Shown one piece after another: positions 5,718 to 44,362 of a DNA stretch of 64,000 nucleotides (position 1 is the first letter of the stretch; each line of letters begins with the position of its first letter). The stretch is from Aphrocallistes beatrix (Eukaryota > Porifera > Hexactinellida > Sceptrulophora > Aphrocallistidae): the NCBI GenBank assembly GCA_963281255.1, contig OY725493.1:3317857-3381856 (forward strand), in the 5' to 3' direction. A model generated the notes under the pieces. It ran no database searches. It was not told the DNA's origin and saw only the letters and a list, made by a program, of their open reading frames with translations. A program made the translations under genes and the position numbers.

Positions 5718-6124
5718 TTAATATGGTTAGAATATAGCATTATACTAATCAAATACACAGCTGAAGTATAATATTAGTAATGGTAAGTTGTCATTTATTA
5801 TTGATCTAGTAAAAATAAACTATATTTCTTCTTTTTGAGCAAAATTGAGGCAATTAATGTCAATAATACGAGCAAGGAAGATTGATTAACCCACTCCTGT
5901 AAGACATAGCTTCTATCTATTGTATCCCTGGAATGCCTGGTGAGTCTCTTATCTGTGGTGAAATTTTGTTTTGACTTGATTGGATTCTAAACTGAAAATT
6001 CAATGTTTTATGTATGTAATCTATAATTATTCTACACTAGTCAATATCAAAGGAAGACAAGGAATCTTTATGGCAACCAACACATCTTTGTATGTGATTA
6101 GGAATGTACATTGCAAAACTTATA

Positions 6125-6585
6125 CACTGCCTGGAAAAAAGTATTCGTACACCCCAAAATTTACTGTACAAATAGTTATAATACTAAGTTATTTAGCGAG
6201 CCAAGGGCATTTAATTTGTAAGAGATACGCTTAATTTAACTTCAAATTCGAATTACTCATTTTATAATCTTTCCACTCGATTAATCTCCCGCAAGGTTAA
6301 ATATTTTCAATCTGTGTCACCTCGTCCCACTAATGCCATCATATACAATGGTGATAACCCGTGATATGCCATGGGGCAGCAAATGCCGAAAATACTATAT
6401 CTTGAAGGAGAGTAAATAAGTTGAAAGTTTATAAAGTGAGTGATTTGAATGTGGAGGAAATAATTTTAAGCAAGATTTAGTGTATCTGTTACTGATTAGA
6501 TGTTATTGACTTCAAAAATTGCTTAGTATTTTAACAATTTGGGGGGAAAATATTGAGGTGTACGAATACTTTTGTACAGGGAGTG
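6125..6585. repeat. Tc1/mariner-type MITE, family B (copy 1)
   Basis: This 461-bp element has inverted ends CACTGCCTGGAAAAAAGTAT (left) and CACTCCCTGTACAAAAGTAT (right complement), both followed by TCGTACACC, and flanking TA (6123-6124, 6586-6587). It is related in plan to the copy at 41719-42221. It is inserted in the Harbinger element. The frame at 5980-6234 overlaps its left end by chance. Confidence 0.85.
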
Positions 6586-8337: not shown

Positions 8338-9684
8338 CAGGGTGTAACAAAAGTGTTGTCACCTTTGAATACAAGCTCTAATTCAATAATAAATACGCAA
8401 AATTGATGTTTTTATTTATTTATATATTTGCCTTCTCTTTCTAAAAGTATTCTAATTCGTTGAGGCATACTGGAAACTAAATTTTCTAAAATTTCTGGAC
8501 TAATGGTCTCCCATGCTAATTTTAGAGTTTGTATTAACTCTTCCCGATTATTTATTTGGCCTTTCTCGTTAACTCGTTCTTTCACTATTGCCCATAGGTT
8601 TTCGATTGGGTTTAGATCTGGTGAGTTACCAGGCCAATCCGCTTTCTTCCAAAATGATTGGAGGTTCTCTTGGCACCATTGTTGAGTTGCTTTAGCTGTG
8701 TGAGCGGGGGCTCCATCTTGCATGAATATGAATTTGGACATCTTTTCTAACATTGGCCGCTCTAAAATGGATGTTGAAATGCTAGTACGATTGATTGCAT
8801 CTTTACAAGTCTTTTCCAAAATTTCATTCCTATAGTAAGAAGAATTTATTGACTGACCCTGTGGGATTATGTGGAGTTGTGATAGAGCTTGGTGGGACAT
8901 TAACCCCCAAACATGAATTTTAGTTGGAAATTTAACAGAAATTAATGGTGGAACATCCATGGTAGACTTGGCCCAAACACGATCGTTGTGCCTATTCGGG
9001 GTAGAAAAGAGTTCGAAGGGAGATTCATCTGACCAGAGAACTTGTTTCCAATCATTGACAGTCCACTGCTGATATTTTCTAGCAAAATCAAGCCGATCTC
9101 GGATATTTTTAAGGGATAAATGGGGAATTTTTTGCCTTTTAAATGCCGTTGCACCGATGGTATCCTTTAGATGGCGATAAATTGTCATGTGAGACACTGG
9201 AGTACCTTTATTCTTTAGTTTCTGCGCAATCTTTCTGGTTGATTTCCTCTGTTTACCAAGAGACTTCGATATTACTATTTTATTGGCCCGATTCAAAATT
9301 GGCGTTCTCCCAGAACGACTCTTGGTTTCAAGACTCTGGGCTTTTTTATGAGCACTCCACCATCTTTTTACCGATCGAAGGCTAACGTTTAATTCATGTG
9401 CAACGTCTTTCTTTGCGATAGAACCTTCTAGCATCCCAATAGCACGAGATCGGAGTGCAATACCATGATCACGGACATTCATCTTAGTCAAATCTAATAG
9501 GTGAACAAAAATTTGATAATAGGAAAGGAAAATTGTATTTCACACATGGTGTGATGTCACAAAATATAGTAATGCGTAATAGCTAACGATGGACTAAGAG
9601 TTTTGTATTTGATTACTATTGGTTCGATATCAATCAAGCATAATGATGAATAATCTAGGGTGACAACACTTTTGTTACACCCTG
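8338..9684 (-). mobile_element. Complete Tc1-type transposon with intact transposase
   Basis: The element is 1,347 bp. Its terminal inverted repeats are identical for 26 bp, starting CAGGGTGTAACAAAAGTGTT, and TA is duplicated at 8336-8337 and 9685-9686. The single gene fills most of it, leaving about 74 bp on the 3' side and 193 bp on the 5' side. No break was seen in ends or gene. Size, ends and TA target are typical of a short-TIR Tc1 element. The perfect ends and uninterrupted frame imply recent insertion. Confidence 0.95.
8412..9491 (-). CDS. Tc1-type transposase, 359 aa, DD37E spacing, apparently intact
   Basis: The enzyme would bind the element ends and perform cut-and-paste transposition into TA sites. 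Residues about 1-110 hold paired helix-turn-helix domains (KDVAHELNVSLRSVKRWW, then STRKIAQKLKNKGTPVSHMT), with a GRTP-type AT-hook-like GRTPILNR between them. The DDE catalytic core shows WSDESPFEL (first Asp), HVWGLMS, QDGAPAHTAKAT (second Asp) and WPGNSPDLNPIENLW (Glu). Counting the printed protein gives 37 residues between the second Asp and the Glu; classic Tc1/Sleeping Beauty has 34. The length fits the family and the ATG at 9491 gives a natural N-terminus. It is the only full transposase in this window without a stop. Confidence 0.95.
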   Translation of the reverse strand: MTKMNVRDHGIALRSRAIGMLEGSIAKKDVAHELNVSLRSVKRWWSAHKKAQSLETKSRSGRTPILNRANKIVISKSLGKQRKSTRKIAQKLKNKGTPVSHMTIYRHLKDTIGATAFKRQKIPHLSLKNIRDRLDFARKYQQWTVNDWKQVLWSDESPFELFSTPNRHNDRVWAKSTMDVPPLISVKFPTKIHVWGLMSHQALSQLHIIPQGQSINSSYYRNEILEKTCKDAINRTSISTSILERPMLEKMSKFIFMQDGAPAHTAKATQQWCQENLQSFWKKADWPGNSPDLNPIENLWAIVKERVNEKGQINNREELIQTLKLAWETISPEILENLVSSMPQRIRILLEREGKYINK

Positions 9685-18493: not shown

Positions 18494-21400
18494 CATAGCC
18501 TACTACATACAGGCCGTTTCACTACTTTAGACCAGGGATAAGATAAAGTCGAGTTTTTCATACAATGAAATTTAACACAATATCATTTTGATATATTTAA
18601 TATCATGTAATTATACATCCTCTACCCCACAATAATGATATTACTGACTGCTGGCATAATTTAGTTGACGGACAAGGAATACTACATAAATATATAGGTG
18701 TATATATACGTACATATATTAATTAGATGTAAGTTTAAGTATCTTCCTTTGAGTATCTTTGGGACAAGCGGTGGTAGAAGTAATATTCTTGGCCATGTTG
18801 TTGAGTAAACAATTACCTGAAATCATTAAAATACAACGTAGCATATCTTTTCCGTCAATACAGCAATCAGCACACTCAAAAGCCCAATCCTCACATTCTT
18901 CATCCTCAATTTTTAGAATAGCCAACTGAACCAAAATGGATTTAGCATCGGACTTGATAAACAGTTTGAGGAGATCTGGTGAATTTTCTATCCCAACGAA
19001 TACTTTCCAAACAGTAAATATAGCATTGAGAACTTGATTTGAAGGCCACTTTAGTCTTCCTCGATCTAATAGCTGAATTAGAACTAAACTAGAATCAAAG
19101 TCTTCTATTTCAAGATATTTGTCTTGAATTAGTGCTGAAGTACATTCTGGACACAAACTTCCGTCTCTAGATATTTTTTTCAGTAGAGAATACGCGCATA
19201 ACCTCCAATAAATGCCAAAGCTTGGCGTGTTTCTGAACTCGGAGTTATACTTTCGTTAGTAAATACAGAAGTGTAGAGAGTTAAGTCAACATTGTCAGCT
19301 GTCTCATAATCTTGATCAGTTTCTGGTTCAGATTCGAAAGTAGTAAGAAATTGCTTGAAAGAAGCTTTATCTTTGCGGATAACACTCTGCGGGTTATACA
19401 GTTTGAGAACCTTAGATAATTTCAGGGCCCTTTCACTCTCAAGTACTTGACAAACTGAGACGTTATAATTAGACCCCGACATCTGTCTGTATAACCCAAA
19501 ATGATGTTCAATAGGGTCATTTTGTAAGAATGAGGAAAGAACGTAAGAAAATCCACAATCACCAGTCAAATAATTAACAAGTTTTGGTATTGCTAAACAT
19601 GTATGTCGAAAACTTGTGAAAGTTTGAGCTGTCAACTTTCCATGAGTATTGGGCAAACTCCTCCAGTATTCTAACCAACGAGCAACTGTAGATATTATTT
19701 GAAATCTTGAATCATTTTGTATCAGGGGTGAGCTATCTTGGTCATTTAGGCGACATCCCATTGCAGGGCTTTTGACATTAAATGTTTTCCAAACACGACA
19801 AATCAAAGACAGAAAATCACATGTTTGGTTCTTATACATGCTATTTCTCGTTTATTGCTGTTGAATGACAAGAGCGGCTACATTTATTTCATCGAAAATA
19901 CGAAGAGCAAGATTCACATTCTGTCTTTCAAATGTAGATGGCCAACATGATTTGAATGATAACCTTGGTGCCAATTTGGCCACAGAAAATCGTTCAGATG
20001 TATACTGAAGCCTCAAGTCCTAAAAATTGTCGTATAATTAGATATTCAAGGTTATAATTACAAGACAAAATAAGGAAAGGGAAGAATTACCTGAAACGCG
20101 GCCTTTGATAACCTCACAGGATAGTTATAATGTAGGATGTCTTCGAAGTTTGGAAATATATAAGTGCAATGAGAATCTTTTTGATTAATCCAATTATTCC
20201 TCAGTGTCTTCATTATGTGCACGAAATCGAAAATCAAGTATACAGACCGTTCACTATCATTTGGGTGTGGCACCCAAGGAATAAGTTGCTTTCCATCCCC
20301 AAGCAATTTGAATAGATGCACATTGAGCGGATAATTGTCTGAGACAATCACATCAATGAAAAGACCACAGTTTTCAATATCTCTGATAACTTGACGAGTG
20401 ATGGGAAGTAAATCTGAAGCTTTTGGATTTGCTAACGGGAGCAAGCGAACTACCGTAGACCACTTTTTACATAGGCTGGTTACCATAAAACAAAGAATAC
20501 TCTTCGCAGGTTCTATAGCGTCAGAGGTGGTTGAGCTACATTCAGCAGTACCAAAAAACTTCCCACCTAAGTAATATAGGTACAGTGATAACATGGTTTA
20601 TATAAAATAACATGTAAACTTACTTTTATAAGTAATGCCGGATTTCACATGAATTTCGTCCATATTAAGAGAGAGATGTCGTTCAAATCGATTAAATCCA
20701 CTTGTCTCAGATTTGAGGAAAGGTATAAATTCGGTGTCCAACCCAAAACTACTATATAGTCGACGCAGTGATGATTCATGAGGTAAAGAGACACTGTCCA
20801 TTCGTCTAAGCTGTTTATAGCAAGCTGAAGACGAGAGATGAGACTTTAGTGATAAGATCATGGTTATCATATTATACCTTCTACAGGTTTTCTTTACACT
20901 AGCGTTCTCAAGTTGGCCCAAGATAAAGTAAAGCTTAGGTAGTAATTCACTTGTATTACTAGAATCTGATGGCATTTCTTCAAGTATTATAATAGCTTGT
21001 TTCAATGCAGAAATGCTTCGTCTAACCTCTACAAAAATAAAAAGTATCAGACGATGGGTAATCTTATTGTCTTACAACATATAATATAACTAACCATTTA
21101 GAACTGGATCAATTCTGTAATTATCTAGCTCCTGAATCAATGTGCTAATCTGACGAGTGTCATTAATAGAGCTGATTGAGAGAGTAACTGGTGTTCCATG
21201 ATGGTAAGCTTTCAACTCAAGAGTAGTGTCAATAGTGAAATAATAGTGAACTGATATGCTAGTTGTGTTGTTGAGATTTACAACATTCATTTGAGTGGCG
21301 TTAGGTTGCCAAATAATCCATTCACTAGGAAGATCTATGGTAGATGATTTAGCGATCAAATCAGAGAATGTCGAAATAGAGAATTTTCTTTGTTCTTCTT

Positions 21401-34438: not shown

Positions 34439-34819
34439 TGATTGAATATGATTATTTTGAGTTTATATTTGATTGTTAAAAGTTATTTTATGATCGAATT
34501 GATTGATCATAACATATAACACACTATAATGGCGCCTATTTTGATGTTCACACCTTCCATATATGGTAATACTACTTAAAACTCGAATTTGGCTCTAACT
34601 ACACATGGCAAATGTACTATCTTTGAATAGGAAATCATATGAGCTGATTTGGAAGGCAATACTCAATTTAACTAAATCTTACTGGTTTTTGAGTTTTGCG
34701 GTTTTAACACCATTCCATATATGGTAATGCTGTTTAAAGCTCGCATTTGGTTCTAATTAGATAAAACCAATGTACTAATAACTTGGACAAAGATAATTGA
34801 AGAATATCTTGAATAAATC

Positions 34820-36986
34820 CTAGTCCTGACAATCTCCTGAACAGGCACACAGTGCAGTGCATTTTAACATAGCTTTAACACATTTGCATTGACCACGGCA
34901 TCCCTTCTTACAGCCACAATGTATCAGCTCATAACATGACTTAGAAGCTTCTGGAAGAGTAGTCCAGAAAGGTTGCCACTCAGAATATTGCTTGGTCCAT
35001 CCCCAGTCAGAAGGATTTGGCAATTGTGGATTGGAAGACAAACATAAATTCCAGCAATAGCACTGAAAACGGCCACGCTTTATGTGTTGTTCCAATGCAG
35101 CCTGTGTAGGTGGAATATTCTCCAGCATACGAGATGACTGGGCAAACAGTTGTTTTCTGGCATCGTTGACCCTGCTTAGCTCGCTAGTTCTGCAATACAT
35201 TTAAACAACAAATCGTTCTAATTTTTCCATTGAAATATCACTAATTCCTTCTGTCATGATCGCTAACTGTTCAAATGCTCCAGTGACCTCGGGATAGGCA
35301 TTCCAAGTTGACCAGGCAGTCTTCTTCCCTATGCCAGCAAATGAAGACACAGTGTCACAGCCTGTAAGTGCATGGAACATTGGAAGGGTAGAAGATTTCC
35401 TAGGTCCCAAGGCTGCAGCTACTTCATGGATTGCGATGACCCGGAAATTTCCACCAGTACCAAACGCCACCCAGAGTTCATCTGGCTCTATTTTACTTAG
35501 TGTCGCTATTGCAATAACCACGACATCTGTATCAACTGTACGCAGTAACAATCTCTTATGTCCCTTCTTGACGGCATCTGCCATATGTAAAAATAGACGC
35601 ATGTCGGCTTCCTCGTGACTGCATGGAACCAATCCTGCCAGGTCAGCTTGATTAAAAGAGCAATTCACATTTGGTCCATCAGTTGCATACACTTCCCTGC
35701 CTTTTATTTGTAAAAGGGAGACCTGGCGTGATAGGAAGTTAAAAAGTTCTGTTTTATTTTCGTCCACTCTTAAGAAATCTTTCCAGTTCTTTGGCATCGC
35801 TGCAGTGGGAACTACTCGTCTACGTATACCTTTTCCCCTATTTAGTCTGGCAGCACCCTTGAGGCTATTAGGTTGATAGACATCCCAAACAATGTCAACG
35901 CGTGTGGCATTCTCAAGTTGTGATGATACATATGGCACAAATACTTGGTCTACATACTCCAAAAATGTTTTCGCTGTTCCGGGATTCAACATCTGGACAA
36001 CAGCTGAGCCATCTAGAAATATCGCATCGACCATTGGGAATTCTTTCGATGATGTTGTCTCTGCTTCAAGGCAAGGCATTAGATCTGCCTTTGTGCCAAA
36101 CCGAAGATTTCCTCCCATTGACAAAGATGGTGGACAAGCATGGTTTTCATGACAGAAGAACTGGTCCACATCACCATCTCTTGACTGACAAGCTAGATAT
36201 AATCTTGAGAATAAATAACAATCACTCTTCACTGATTTTAGCTGTAGCTTTCCTTTTAAAGGAACTTTGACTGATGGACGGCTGAAGAGTGATAGTTTGT
36301 TTTTGGATATTGTATCTGTAACAGGCTTCACACATTTGGACAGCCGTTCTTCAACAAACTTGTTGTACTGATCCTGACCAAGGGTTTCCACTTTTCTGAC
36401 TGTTTCAGCAAGTTGATCATTCATGATATCTTTGGTATCTAGAACCTAACGATCGTTGTTCTCCTCCATGAAGGGGTTACCCATTTCTTGAAACGTAGCT
36501 GTGAGCGACTGGACATCTTTAAGAAAGGAAGACTGCACTCCAGGTTGCTGGTCATGATGTAGACCACTGAGGTTTTGTTTAGTTCCACATATCATCATAT
36601 CGACTTCAAATTCTTCACTCAGTCTCGATACTTCAGGTCCTGCCACAGTCCAGCGCCTCAATTGTCTGTCAATCCAACCGCCCCACCTGAACCTTTGACC
36701 ATGGCATTTTTCTGCTCGTGACATTGGCCGATTGCCATTGCTGAAAACTTGTTGCTAGTTTTGTAGACTACAAATTTTCCCTGCCTGAATTCTGTAAGGA
36801 TGTTTGAATGCTTTAATGACAGAGTCATCATGTCACGTATGTGAACTGACAACCACCGGGCATAGGATTGCCATTATCTTTCTGGCACAATACACACAGC
36901 TCCCAGTTAGTGGTGGATGTAATAGTCTTGGGCTGCTTTGACCTGCTTAAATGAGCAGGATCTATCAGCATGAAACGCTTAGCCAT
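34820..36986 (-). pseudogene. FEN1/XPG-like nuclease with C-terminal CXC-like domain, broken
   Basis: An ATG at 36986 opens MAKRFMLIDPAHLS with a CVLCQ motif. After a jump comes FSAMAIGQCHEQKNAMVKG, a frameshift, then WTVAGPEVSRL. The 407-codon frame (35201-36424) has an Asp in AIFLDGSAVVQML, HEEADMRLFLHM, LRTVDTDVVVIA and LTGCDTVSSFAGIGKKTAW. These align in order with the acidic clusters of FEN1 (EAEA, DxD, GSDY) and its helix-turn-helix GIGPKRA. The tail (34820-35200) reads CGCKKGCRGQCKCVKAMLKC, a tesmin-like cysteine cluster. Lesions: TAG after ENNDR, TAA after RFVV, one frameshift near 36670. Relatives that I recall from invertebrates and fish are much longer in the middle, so an internal deletion is likely. 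Molecular role in transposition is inference. Confidence 0.8.
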
Positions 36987-37292
36987 TAAATAAAAAATAA
37001 CAGGAGAGAGATATTCAATAGTTACAATTAAATACTAGGCTAAACTCGACCTGATAAAGGATAAAATGTTGTATAGATAATGTTTGTCAAGTATACAAAC
37101 TAAAACCAATACGATGAAATATAAAATATCAACAATTTCAGTATAAATAGAATGGTGAAAACCTAACAAAAGCAGTGAAATTTTAATATATCCATTCGAG
37201 CCTTTCAACTATATATGATTTCATATTCAACGATAACATAATTGCTATGTGCAACCAACCGACCAAATACGAGTTGATAAATTGATCCAATA

Positions 37293-37470
37293 CAGTGGAA
37301 CCTGTTAATGACGTCCACCCAACTTCACCCAAGGGCCTGCCAAAAATGACCGTTTTACGATGGTGGCCGTTATACGCAGGTCACTTGTCATTAAAGTACA
37401 TGTCAAGGATAAAGTGCCGTTGTAGACAGGTGCCCGCTATATAGAGTGGCTGTTATAGCAGGTTCTAATG
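37293..37470. repeat. pogo-like MITE inside the nuclease element
   Basis: CAGTGGAACCTGTTAATGAC at the left and a mirrored TAACAGCAGGTTCTAATG-like right end; about 178 bp. The interior is made of GTTATA.GCAGGT-like inverted motifs. It splits the right sub-terminal repeats of the nuclease element, so it came later. Confidence 0.7.
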
Positions 37471-37881
37471 CACATGACTTCCTATTCAACGATAACATAC
37501 TTGTTATATGTAACCAACCAAATGGAGCTTTAAACAGCATTACCATATATGGAATGGTGTTAAAACCGCAAAACTCAAAAACCAGTAAGATTTAGTTAAA
37601 TTGAGTATAGCCTTTCAAATCAGCTTATATGATTTCCTATTCAAAGATAGTACATTTGCCATGTCTAATTAGAGCCAAATTCGAGTTTTAAGCAGTATTG
37701 CCATATATGGAAGGTGTGAACATCAAAATAGGCGCCAAAGTCGAAATACGCACTTTTCAAAATGGGTCCTGATCTTTAAATGAACCTTATGCTGTATAGA
37801 ATCATTGTACCAAAATTCATGCTTGTACCATAAAATGCACAATTCCTTTTATTATTTTAGCTTATCTGCTACACTAATGGG

Positions 37882-39059
37882 ATACTTACCAAATTGCTTT
37901 TTTATCATTTTTAGATCCTTATATGGGTTCTAAACAATAATTCCGATTTTTATAACTCCAGCCCCAATATTTCGCCACTTTGAGCCACTTGTATCACCTG
38001 GTGTCGCTCTAAAAACGATACATTTTAAATGCGAAATGTCCCACAGCTATAACTTCTTTTAACAGTGCCAGAGCATCTTTTTAATACTGAATTCATGCTC
38101 AGCACTGGATTTCCAGCAATTTGATATATATTTTGACCATATTTGGAAAAATTTTTGTTTGCCCGTGCCTAGCAACGGACAGGAATTTTTTCACATTCCT
38201 GACCGTTGCTAGGAAAAGGCAACCAAAATATTCTCCAAATATGGTCAATATATATATCAAATTGCTGGAAATCTAGTGCTGAGTACGAATTTAGTGTTAA
38301 AATAGCGACCTGGCATAGTCAAATAAAGTTATAGATGTGGGATTTCGGCGGATACTATCGGACAAGGTCATTTTTGGATCCTCAGTCATAACTGACAACT
38401 TTTTTACACTTTTGAAGGTGTCATGATGTGAAAATATTTGATATGCCTTATTTTGAATTTAAGTACTACTATAAGTTGTTGATTTAGGATGTTTAGATGT
38501 TATTTAATACTAGGACACAGTAAAAAATAATGGAAATCAAGCCTTTCCGAAGAAAATTGCTTTGTAGCCTGTTTTTAGCACTCAAAAAATCCATTTTACA
38601 ACGGAGGAATCTCTAGTTACTAAAGTCGTAGAATAAAAAACTCGACGGTTTGGAAAGATCTCGTCACGTAGAACAAAATGATAGAGACATATTTTCGATA
38701 TTCTACTTTAGAAAAGAGTTAAAATATTTTTCTTTACGAAAATCTGCCTTTAAATATTGTAGCAACGAAATTTGAAAGAAAAAATTATTTAGGTTAAAAT
38801 TGAAAATTCTATTCCTATTATTTTCTTTATTCAACCATTTCGTGCAGGAATAATTGAGTAAAAGAGACATAAGCCATTGAAGTTTCCTTGAATGTCCTCT
38901 ATAAATTAGGTGATTTGAGGAAAAAAAATTTTTTTCTTGCTTCTTTAGCTTCCGAAAAGTGTATTTTTGCAGATAACTCATCGAGAATAGTTTCCACAAA
39001 AACTTTCAGGAGAAAATAATGAAAACTTTAAAATTTAGTTCTGGAAGGAAACACCACCC
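37882..39059. mobile_element. TTAA-type element, copy 2 (truncated, inverted)
   Basis: It matches 1804-3694 in the opposite orientation and ends with GGAAACACCACCC before TTAA (39060-39063). The left end is lost at about 37882 (ATGGGATACTT). It has no Helitron and gives the empty site for copy A at the GATATATATATT palindrome. The frame 38703-38999 is not a gene. Between 37737 and 37882 nothing was recognised. Confidence 0.75.
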
Positions 39060-43337: not shown

Positions 43338-44362
43338 ATGAATGAATTAGAGAAGAGAAAAGTTGTTGAGACCTATTTTCACAATGGACATGGTGCGTCT
43401 CAAATCTGGAAGCTTGTAAAAGATCTCGGAATATCACGAGCCACAGTCTACAGGCTCGTTAAAAAGTTCCAAAATGGCGGAAGTAGCGACAGGAAATCGG
43501 GTTCTTGGGGTGAACTGTCAAATAAGAACCATAGTGCGAGGAGAAAGATTGCTGATCGTCTGCGCCGGAATCCAGCTCAGTCAGTCAGAAAAATCGCGAG
43601 AGAGATCGGAATTCCAAAGTCCACGGCTCAAGATATTGTCAGAAGGGACTTGAAACTGAGAGCAAGGAAGAAGGAAAAGAAACAAGCGCTCACAAGTCCC
43701 CGAAGGCAAAAAGAGAGACAAGATCCAGAACTCTTCGTCGATCGTTGGACAGCTACTCGCACAGACAAGTTCTCTTTAGCGATGAAAAATATTTCCTGAT
43801 GGATCAGCCCCTTAATCGCCAAAACGATCGTGTCTACATCAAAGAAGGGACAAAGAAGCCTCTGAGTAAGAAAACGATCGTGGAAAAGAATAAATTTAGC
43901 CGAAAACTCATGGTCTGGGCAGGGGTAGCCTATAACCTAAAAACTGATCTGGTTCTCTTCAGGCAAGGAGAGACTGTGAATGCGGATCGGTACCAAAGTG
44001 CAATTTTAGCTCCTTTGTCGTCAGCACAACCTCGTTTTCCAACAGGACTCCGCCCCTTGCCACACGGCAACCAAATTCGCAGAATTTTTGATGACGGAAA
44101 ATATCGATTTTTGGACGAAAGAAGATTGGCCGCCAAACTCCCCCTGATCTCAATCCCCTTGACTACGGTATATGGGGTATGCTGGAGCAGGAGATGTACC
44201 GTAAGCCACCAAAGAATTTGCAGGACCTGGAGAACAAAATTCGACGAGCTTGGGATAATTTGGATCTGTCCAAAGTTAACCGGTGCATTGATCGATTCAA
44301 GGGACGATTGCGACAATGTGAAGATGCAAAAGGCAGCCATTTCGAATGAAAATGTTTTGTAG
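43338..44362 (+). pseudogene. DD37D transposase, two frameshifts
   Basis: The first frame (43338-43799) gives MNELEKRKVVETYFHNGHGA, a helix-turn-helix (RATVYRLVKKFQNGG) and a second one (SVRKIAREIGIPKSTAQDIV). The frame shifts near 43790 into LFSDEKYFLMDQPLNRQNDR and LMVWAGVAYNLKTDLV. A second shift leads to QDSAPCHTATKFAEFL and WPPNSP; one extra C in a run near 44146 then separates DLNPLDYGIWGMLEQEMY. There are 37 residues between the last two Asp. The tail ends CEDAKGSHFE. A small number of lesions suggests a fairly young element. Confidence 0.9.

Follow-up and report, generated by a model that had tools for sequence, protein, structure and literature searches.

Academ is an established group of mobile elements in animals, the nuclease of Academ and AcademX elements is of XPG type, and the AcademX lineage is said to go back to Kojima in 2020. 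EnSpm elements, which also come into question here, start with CACTA. According to PMC10045372, AcademH elements make target duplications of 9 or 10 bp and AcademX elements of 3 or 4 bp, a difference tied to helicase versus nuclease; the word used there is nuclease. A mean Academ length of 5565 bp is given for a curated bivalve set in PMC10294476, and C(2)C and H(3-4)H motifs are described for the EnSpm group in PMC12730594.

In this study, we analysed a nuclease-bearing repeat in a window of 64,000 nucleotides (the whole stretch of DNA considered) and searched the 100.5-Mb genome (28 contigs) for its copies. With a probability of about 0.87, the window locus belongs to a cut-and-paste DNA transposon of AcademX type, as a decayed, non-autonomous and internally deleted copy. 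AcademX is the best filing because of the nuclease, the 3-bp duplication, the transposase-type region joined to the nuclease, and the length of 5.1-5.3 kb; this most likely assignment compares published features of the lineage with the genes as read in the sequence.

The nuclease and its Cys-rich tail

The features of the window element are as follows, in window coordinates.

36861..36986, minus strand: N-terminal coding piece (MAKRFMLIDPAH...NWELCVLCQ...), matching the first part of the L065 protein at 49% identity (E 4e-8)
36861..36867: deletion junction between the N-terminal piece and the end of the transposase-type region, seen as the overlap of two protein matches to L065
36661..36867, minus strand: what is left of the 3'-terminal part of the putative DDE-type transposase region (SYARW...GQCHEQKNA...VKGSGGAVGLTDN), with matches to L065 at E 5e-14 and 6e-4
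36173..36661, minus strand: linker from the transposase-type region to the nuclease, 46% identity to L065
35201..36424, minus strand: predicted FEN1/XPG-type nuclease ORF, 407 aa, from motifs and profile comparison, ending at the in-frame TAA 35201-35203
36008-36022, 35882-35896, 35603-35617, 35522-35533 and 35354-35365, minus strand: acidic motifs of the nuclease ORF, from the sequence
35312-35335, minus strand: GIGKKTAW of the nuclease ORF, from the sequence
34820..35200, minus strand: C-terminal region with CXC-like Cys cluster, in the same frame as the nuclease after one TAA
34530..34742, plus strand: left terminal inverted repeat, truncated to its inner part, the outer 140 bp of other copies missing
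37525..37876, minus strand: right terminal inverted repeat, extending as far as the terminus ...CTACACTA, from arm comparison across copies

Within the 407-aa frame of the window, IFLDG, DIVWD, HEEAD, DTDV, TGCD and GIGKKTAW occur in this order, and we take the ordered acidic motifs to be FEN1-like. Profiles of element proteins from this genome (14-row and 9-row alignments) were compared with host-like EXO1, GEN1 and XPG frames, whose names were given by eye. The hhalign comparison of element and host-like profiles yielded E-values of 8.8e-5 and 9.2e-6, the probabilities being a moderate 59.7 and 82.9. Restricted to the window's columns, the comparison scored 48.5 and 52.0 (probability 76.9 and 85.0, again moderate); column shuffling, 150 times each, reached at most 22.3 and 23.6, and the reversed controls gave 14.9 and 12.9. 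Because the profile scores exceed both the shuffled and the reversed controls, they support homology of the predicted nuclease core to the FEN1/XPG family, which the original prediction had proposed from the order of the motifs; the alignments span residues 177-390 and 294-392 and leave IFLDG, the first acidic motif, uncovered. This span and the moderate probabilities count against the AcademX reading.

No Pfam model matched the window ORFs or the element frames above cut-off, with weak sub-threshold matches only, and this counts against the AcademX reading. Across the genome, Pfam XPG_I gave five matches at four loci, all of them other host-like genes and none at element copies, which likewise counts against that reading. 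A PDB sequence search with the element proteins returned nothing credible (best E 0.12 and 0.91), two scans of the virus collection found no relatives, and the AlphaFold2 single-sequence model of the window protein, at pLDDT 34, was too low for a fold reading.

The Cys cluster expected behind the nuclease is present in the frame 34820-35200 of the minus strand, and the spacing of its cysteines turned up a single time in the real window, against 0 times in 20 mononucleotide-shuffled windows. Among the element copies and loci examined, two copies of family A, the window's family, have the complete pattern, namely those of the window and of C2; family B (L065) has only its start, before a frame break, and no such cluster was seen in the frames of family C (L088, L089). 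A literature search for tesmin/CXC together with transposase or transposon found nothing relevant among the papers listed.

Elsewhere in the window, a Tc1/mariner-like transposase (DDE_3, HTH_Tnp_Tc3_2) occupies 8412-9491, a TNP-like RNase H fragment 20058-20594, and an HTH frame resembling the N-terminus of a Tc1-type transposase 43338-43799.

Termini, target duplication and empty sites

The nuclease gene is flanked by inverted arms at 34530-34742 and 37525-37737, each of 213 nt, 97% complementary and built of direct sub-repeats 158 bp apart, an arrangement far beyond chance and one that had been recognised beforehand. Genome-wide, the arm sequence is matched at least 60 times (with 40 of 128 candidates scored), and the outer arm alone has 40 (40 of 40 scored). 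GGCGCC had been taken for the tips of the element, but when 21 arm ends drawn from 30 arm loci were examined outward, 20 ran past GGCGCC with outer-arm scores above the best of 100 shuffles each; these include the window's own right arm (L007) and L011, which extends just 35 bp. Only the left arm of the window copy has no outer sequence. Elsewhere the arms extend up to 140 bp past GGCGCC, to TAGTG...CACTA, and 13 of the 21 ends, the window's right arm among them, reach the terminus TAGTG. Thus, GGCGCC is internal, and we rejected it as a tip. The window copy ends on the right at 37876 (...CTACACTA), followed at 37877-37879 by ATG in the place expected for one half of a duplication, whereas on the left the copy breaks off at 34530 and has no terminus.

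Gene copies lacking arms, or arms lacking the gene, had been named as observations that would speak against a mobile element, and both were encountered in part. At the DNA level the gene has four matches in the genome, three of which (window, C2 and C4) lie between arms, while the fourth, C19, has none of the listed arm matches nearby. Arms without the nuclease are present in short, internally deleted copies, and the arm sub-repeats are also found in another long-arm family. That family (L085 and L086 on C12, L087 on C19) carries the sub-repeats of the window element at ~75% identity and differs in its ends, CATAGACTCC, and in duplication length, with 8-bp flanking repeats of which one is exact (AGTATAGC) and two match at 7 of 8 positions (by eye). 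Just past the right end of the window element, at 38039-38342, lies an imperfect palindrome of 148 nt (82% complementary, 8-nt loop).

Termini were fixed by conservation and by eye ahead of the duplication count, which was made on eight two-ended copies: five of family A, one of family B and two of family C. Of nine family A copies inspected at both ends, C6, C7b, C11c and C20 were dropped for an eroded or missing end. An exact 3-bp duplication was found in six of the eight copies (TAC, AAG, GTT, GTA, GTA and CAA), with no other exact length among 2 to 10, and the dropped C6, its right terminus eroded, has GTT on both sides by eye. C11b and C4 have both termini intact and no duplication, which counts against the AcademX reading. 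With a chance of 0.020 for a 3-mer match by base composition, six or more of eight has a binomial P of ~2e-9, a value somewhat favourable because the termini had been set by conservation and eye beforehand. A duplication of GCGC or GGCGCC, among the options named beforehand, is not supported; in the window copy the duplication is not visible because the left end is missing.

For the empty-site search, the flanks of six copies were joined minus one duplicate and compared with part of the genome sequence. Matches across the junction were obtained for four of them, two inexact (C2 of family A, C12 of family C) and two base-exact within the same genome. One base-exact paralogous site is that of the family B copy on C12, seen in comparison with window position 6121 and with two C9 stretches, and the other is that of the family A copy on C9, seen in comparison with L019; the repeat at 6121-6313 of the window is itself a paralogous empty site for the former insertion. 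The exact duplications and the base-exact empty sites indicate that the elements insert precisely and duplicate 3 bp, and the predicted mobility is thus borne out by related copies. Exact ends and a 3-bp duplication are now given for three families in one genome, and base-exact empty sites for two.

The terminal letters TAGTG...CACTA and the short 3-bp duplication resemble those of CACTA/EnSpm elements, and an EnSpm element with a captured nuclease gene would account for both. We consider this very unlikely, since EnSpm elements run 5'-CACTA...TAGTG-3' and the polarity here is reversed, family C ends in TAGACA...TGTCTA with the same gene plan, and no Pfam model of an EnSpm-type transposase matched the frames scanned.

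Better-preserved relatives and the deletion in the window copy

Longer relatives carry the nuclease together with a transposase-type region. L065 (C12, element 2249531-2254818, 5288 bp, duplication GTA), although broken by stops and frameshifts, has in colinear order the N-terminal piece, the transposase-type region, the nuclease and the first part of the Cys tail. In L088 (C12, 3325555-3330694, 5140 bp, duplication CAA), an uninterrupted 626-aa frame contains GGFH and the 3'-terminal part of the transposase-type region and continues into the first acidic motif of the nuclease, the remainder of which lies in an overlapping frame. L089 (C2:1342865-1347444) is 98.3% and 97.7% identical to L088 over 2490 and 1411 bp and lacks L088 3543-4763, the core of the transposase-type region, around which it keeps uninterrupted frames of 665 aa and 509 aa, the latter being the nuclease. 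L088 and L089 thus represent a further family with the nuclease, in a better state of preservation, whose ends are TAGACAGGGC and whose duplications are of 3 bp. The VDNID, GG.H...GDWL and HEQ-like motifs of the transposase-type region are conserved between families, with HKR in L065 where the others have HEQ, and by these motifs the region would be of DDE type. In a third copy, L073 (C13:583000-589500), transposase/nuclease remnants adjoin dynein heavy chain-like frames (by eye only).

Protein matches of the window copy to L065 are colinear, in the order N-terminal piece, end of the transposase-type region with HEQ, linker, nuclease and tail, and ~2.4 kb of L065 (5312-7717) has no counterpart; VDNID and GG.H...GDWL fall within the deletion. 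The frame is also broken by a frameshift near 36661, TAG at 36446-36448 and TAA at 35201-35203. Because ~2.4 kb with most of the transposase region has been lost, the frame carries a frameshift and two in-frame stops, and the left outer end is gone, the window copy is probably immobile or dead. The C2 copy of family A has a different deletion, with 35911 joined to 37027, and since the two deletions differ, they point to independent losses from a longer parent. The apparent absence of a transposase in the window copy is thus a deletion. That no DDE core is visible, as stated earlier, is true of this copy only, since 36867-36661 keeps the end of the region with HEQ and the relatives keep more of it. 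The nuclease gene is the back half of a transposon protein.

Could the nuclease itself move the element, as a nuclease-only transposon without a DDE enzyme? The long frames of the window code for just the nuclease and tail, and the 509-aa nuclease frame of L089 is uninterrupted despite the deleted transposase core. Furthermore, two transposase pieces of L065 matched the genome at 2 and 4 places, none of them at a family A copy among those listed from the arm searches; that these pieces found no transposase core in family A counts against the AcademX reading as well. We regard movement by the nuclease alone as more unlikely still than EnSpm kinship. The window retains the end of the transposase-type region at the deletion junction, L065 and L088 carry this region with the nuclease (colinear in the former, in frame in the latter), and copies without the nuclease (C1 and C9) have also inserted, as expected if they were mobilised in trans. 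Duplications of fixed short length are, moreover, typical of DDE enzymes. The window element is most likely not a nuclease-driven element. Least likely of all is a host repair nuclease or domesticated gene caught between repeats by chance, for which the arm-less C19 match could be cited, since all 85 candidates for the protein were scored and gave 42 genomic places, with the match interrupted by stops in 22, separate host-like EXO1, GEN1 and XPG genes (named by eye) exist, the other three DNA-level gene matches lie inside arms, and related copies have empty sites.

Taken together, the original prediction stands in its observation of the nuclease ORF, the Cys tail and the inverted arms and in its reading of a mobile FEN1/XPG-type nuclease gene with Academ kinship. 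It does not stand on GGCGCC as tips or duplication, nor on a nuclease that moves the element in place of a DDE core.

Proposed mechanism and comparison with known systems

In the AcademX-type parent, the gene would open with a Cys-bearing N-terminal piece, followed by the DDE-type transposase region, then the FEN1/XPG-type nuclease, and last, at the C-terminus, the CXC-like Cys cluster. Cutting at the TAGTG...CACTA ends and joining to a target opened with a 3-bp stagger would be the task of the transposase region, where the duplication is observed and the enzyme is what we infer. During excision or integration, the nuclease probably acts on flaps or on the uncut strand, the Cys tail probably binds DNA, and the shorter sister copies were probably mobilised in trans by an autonomous relative. 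The available part of PMC10045372 ties the nuclease to the short duplication and reports no test of its role; copies like L088, with transposase-type and nuclease parts in one frame, would make this role testable. A bolder suggestion, to which we give a small chance, is that the core-less copies keeping the nuclease (the window copy, and L089 with its 509-aa frame) still have a function: as a free flap-type enzyme, their nuclease would act in trans, helping or repressing full-length AcademX elements, and the geometry of the nuclease, rather than the DDE region, would set the 3-bp stagger.

With FEN1, EXO1, GEN1 and XPG proteins (host-like L075-L077), the element nuclease shares the profile homology of its core, the order of acidic motifs and GCD...G.GKK.A, but it is repeat-borne, very divergent and unmatched by Pfam XPG_I. 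AcademH has the superfamily name in common and was rejected, since a helicase and duplications of 9 or 10 bp are expected there (PMC10045372), whereas a nuclease and 3 bp are found here; no Pfam helicase model matched the frames scanned of the window element and its relatives. The window copy differs from AcademX in having no transposase core, in its stops and in its missing left end, and its CXC-like tail goes unmentioned in the available parts of published Academ descriptions. Like AcademX, the elements have a FEN1/XPG-type nuclease, as judged from profile scores and motif order, and 3-bp duplications in six of eight two-ended copies, supported by the empty sites, which agrees with the 3 or 4 bp reported in PMC10045372 and favours the Academ kinship proposed at the outset. 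The longer relatives have a transposase-type region joined to the nuclease and are ~5 kb in length, L065 at 5288 bp and L088 at 5140 bp fitting the published Academ mean. The window element most likely adds a member to the nuclease lineage of Academ.
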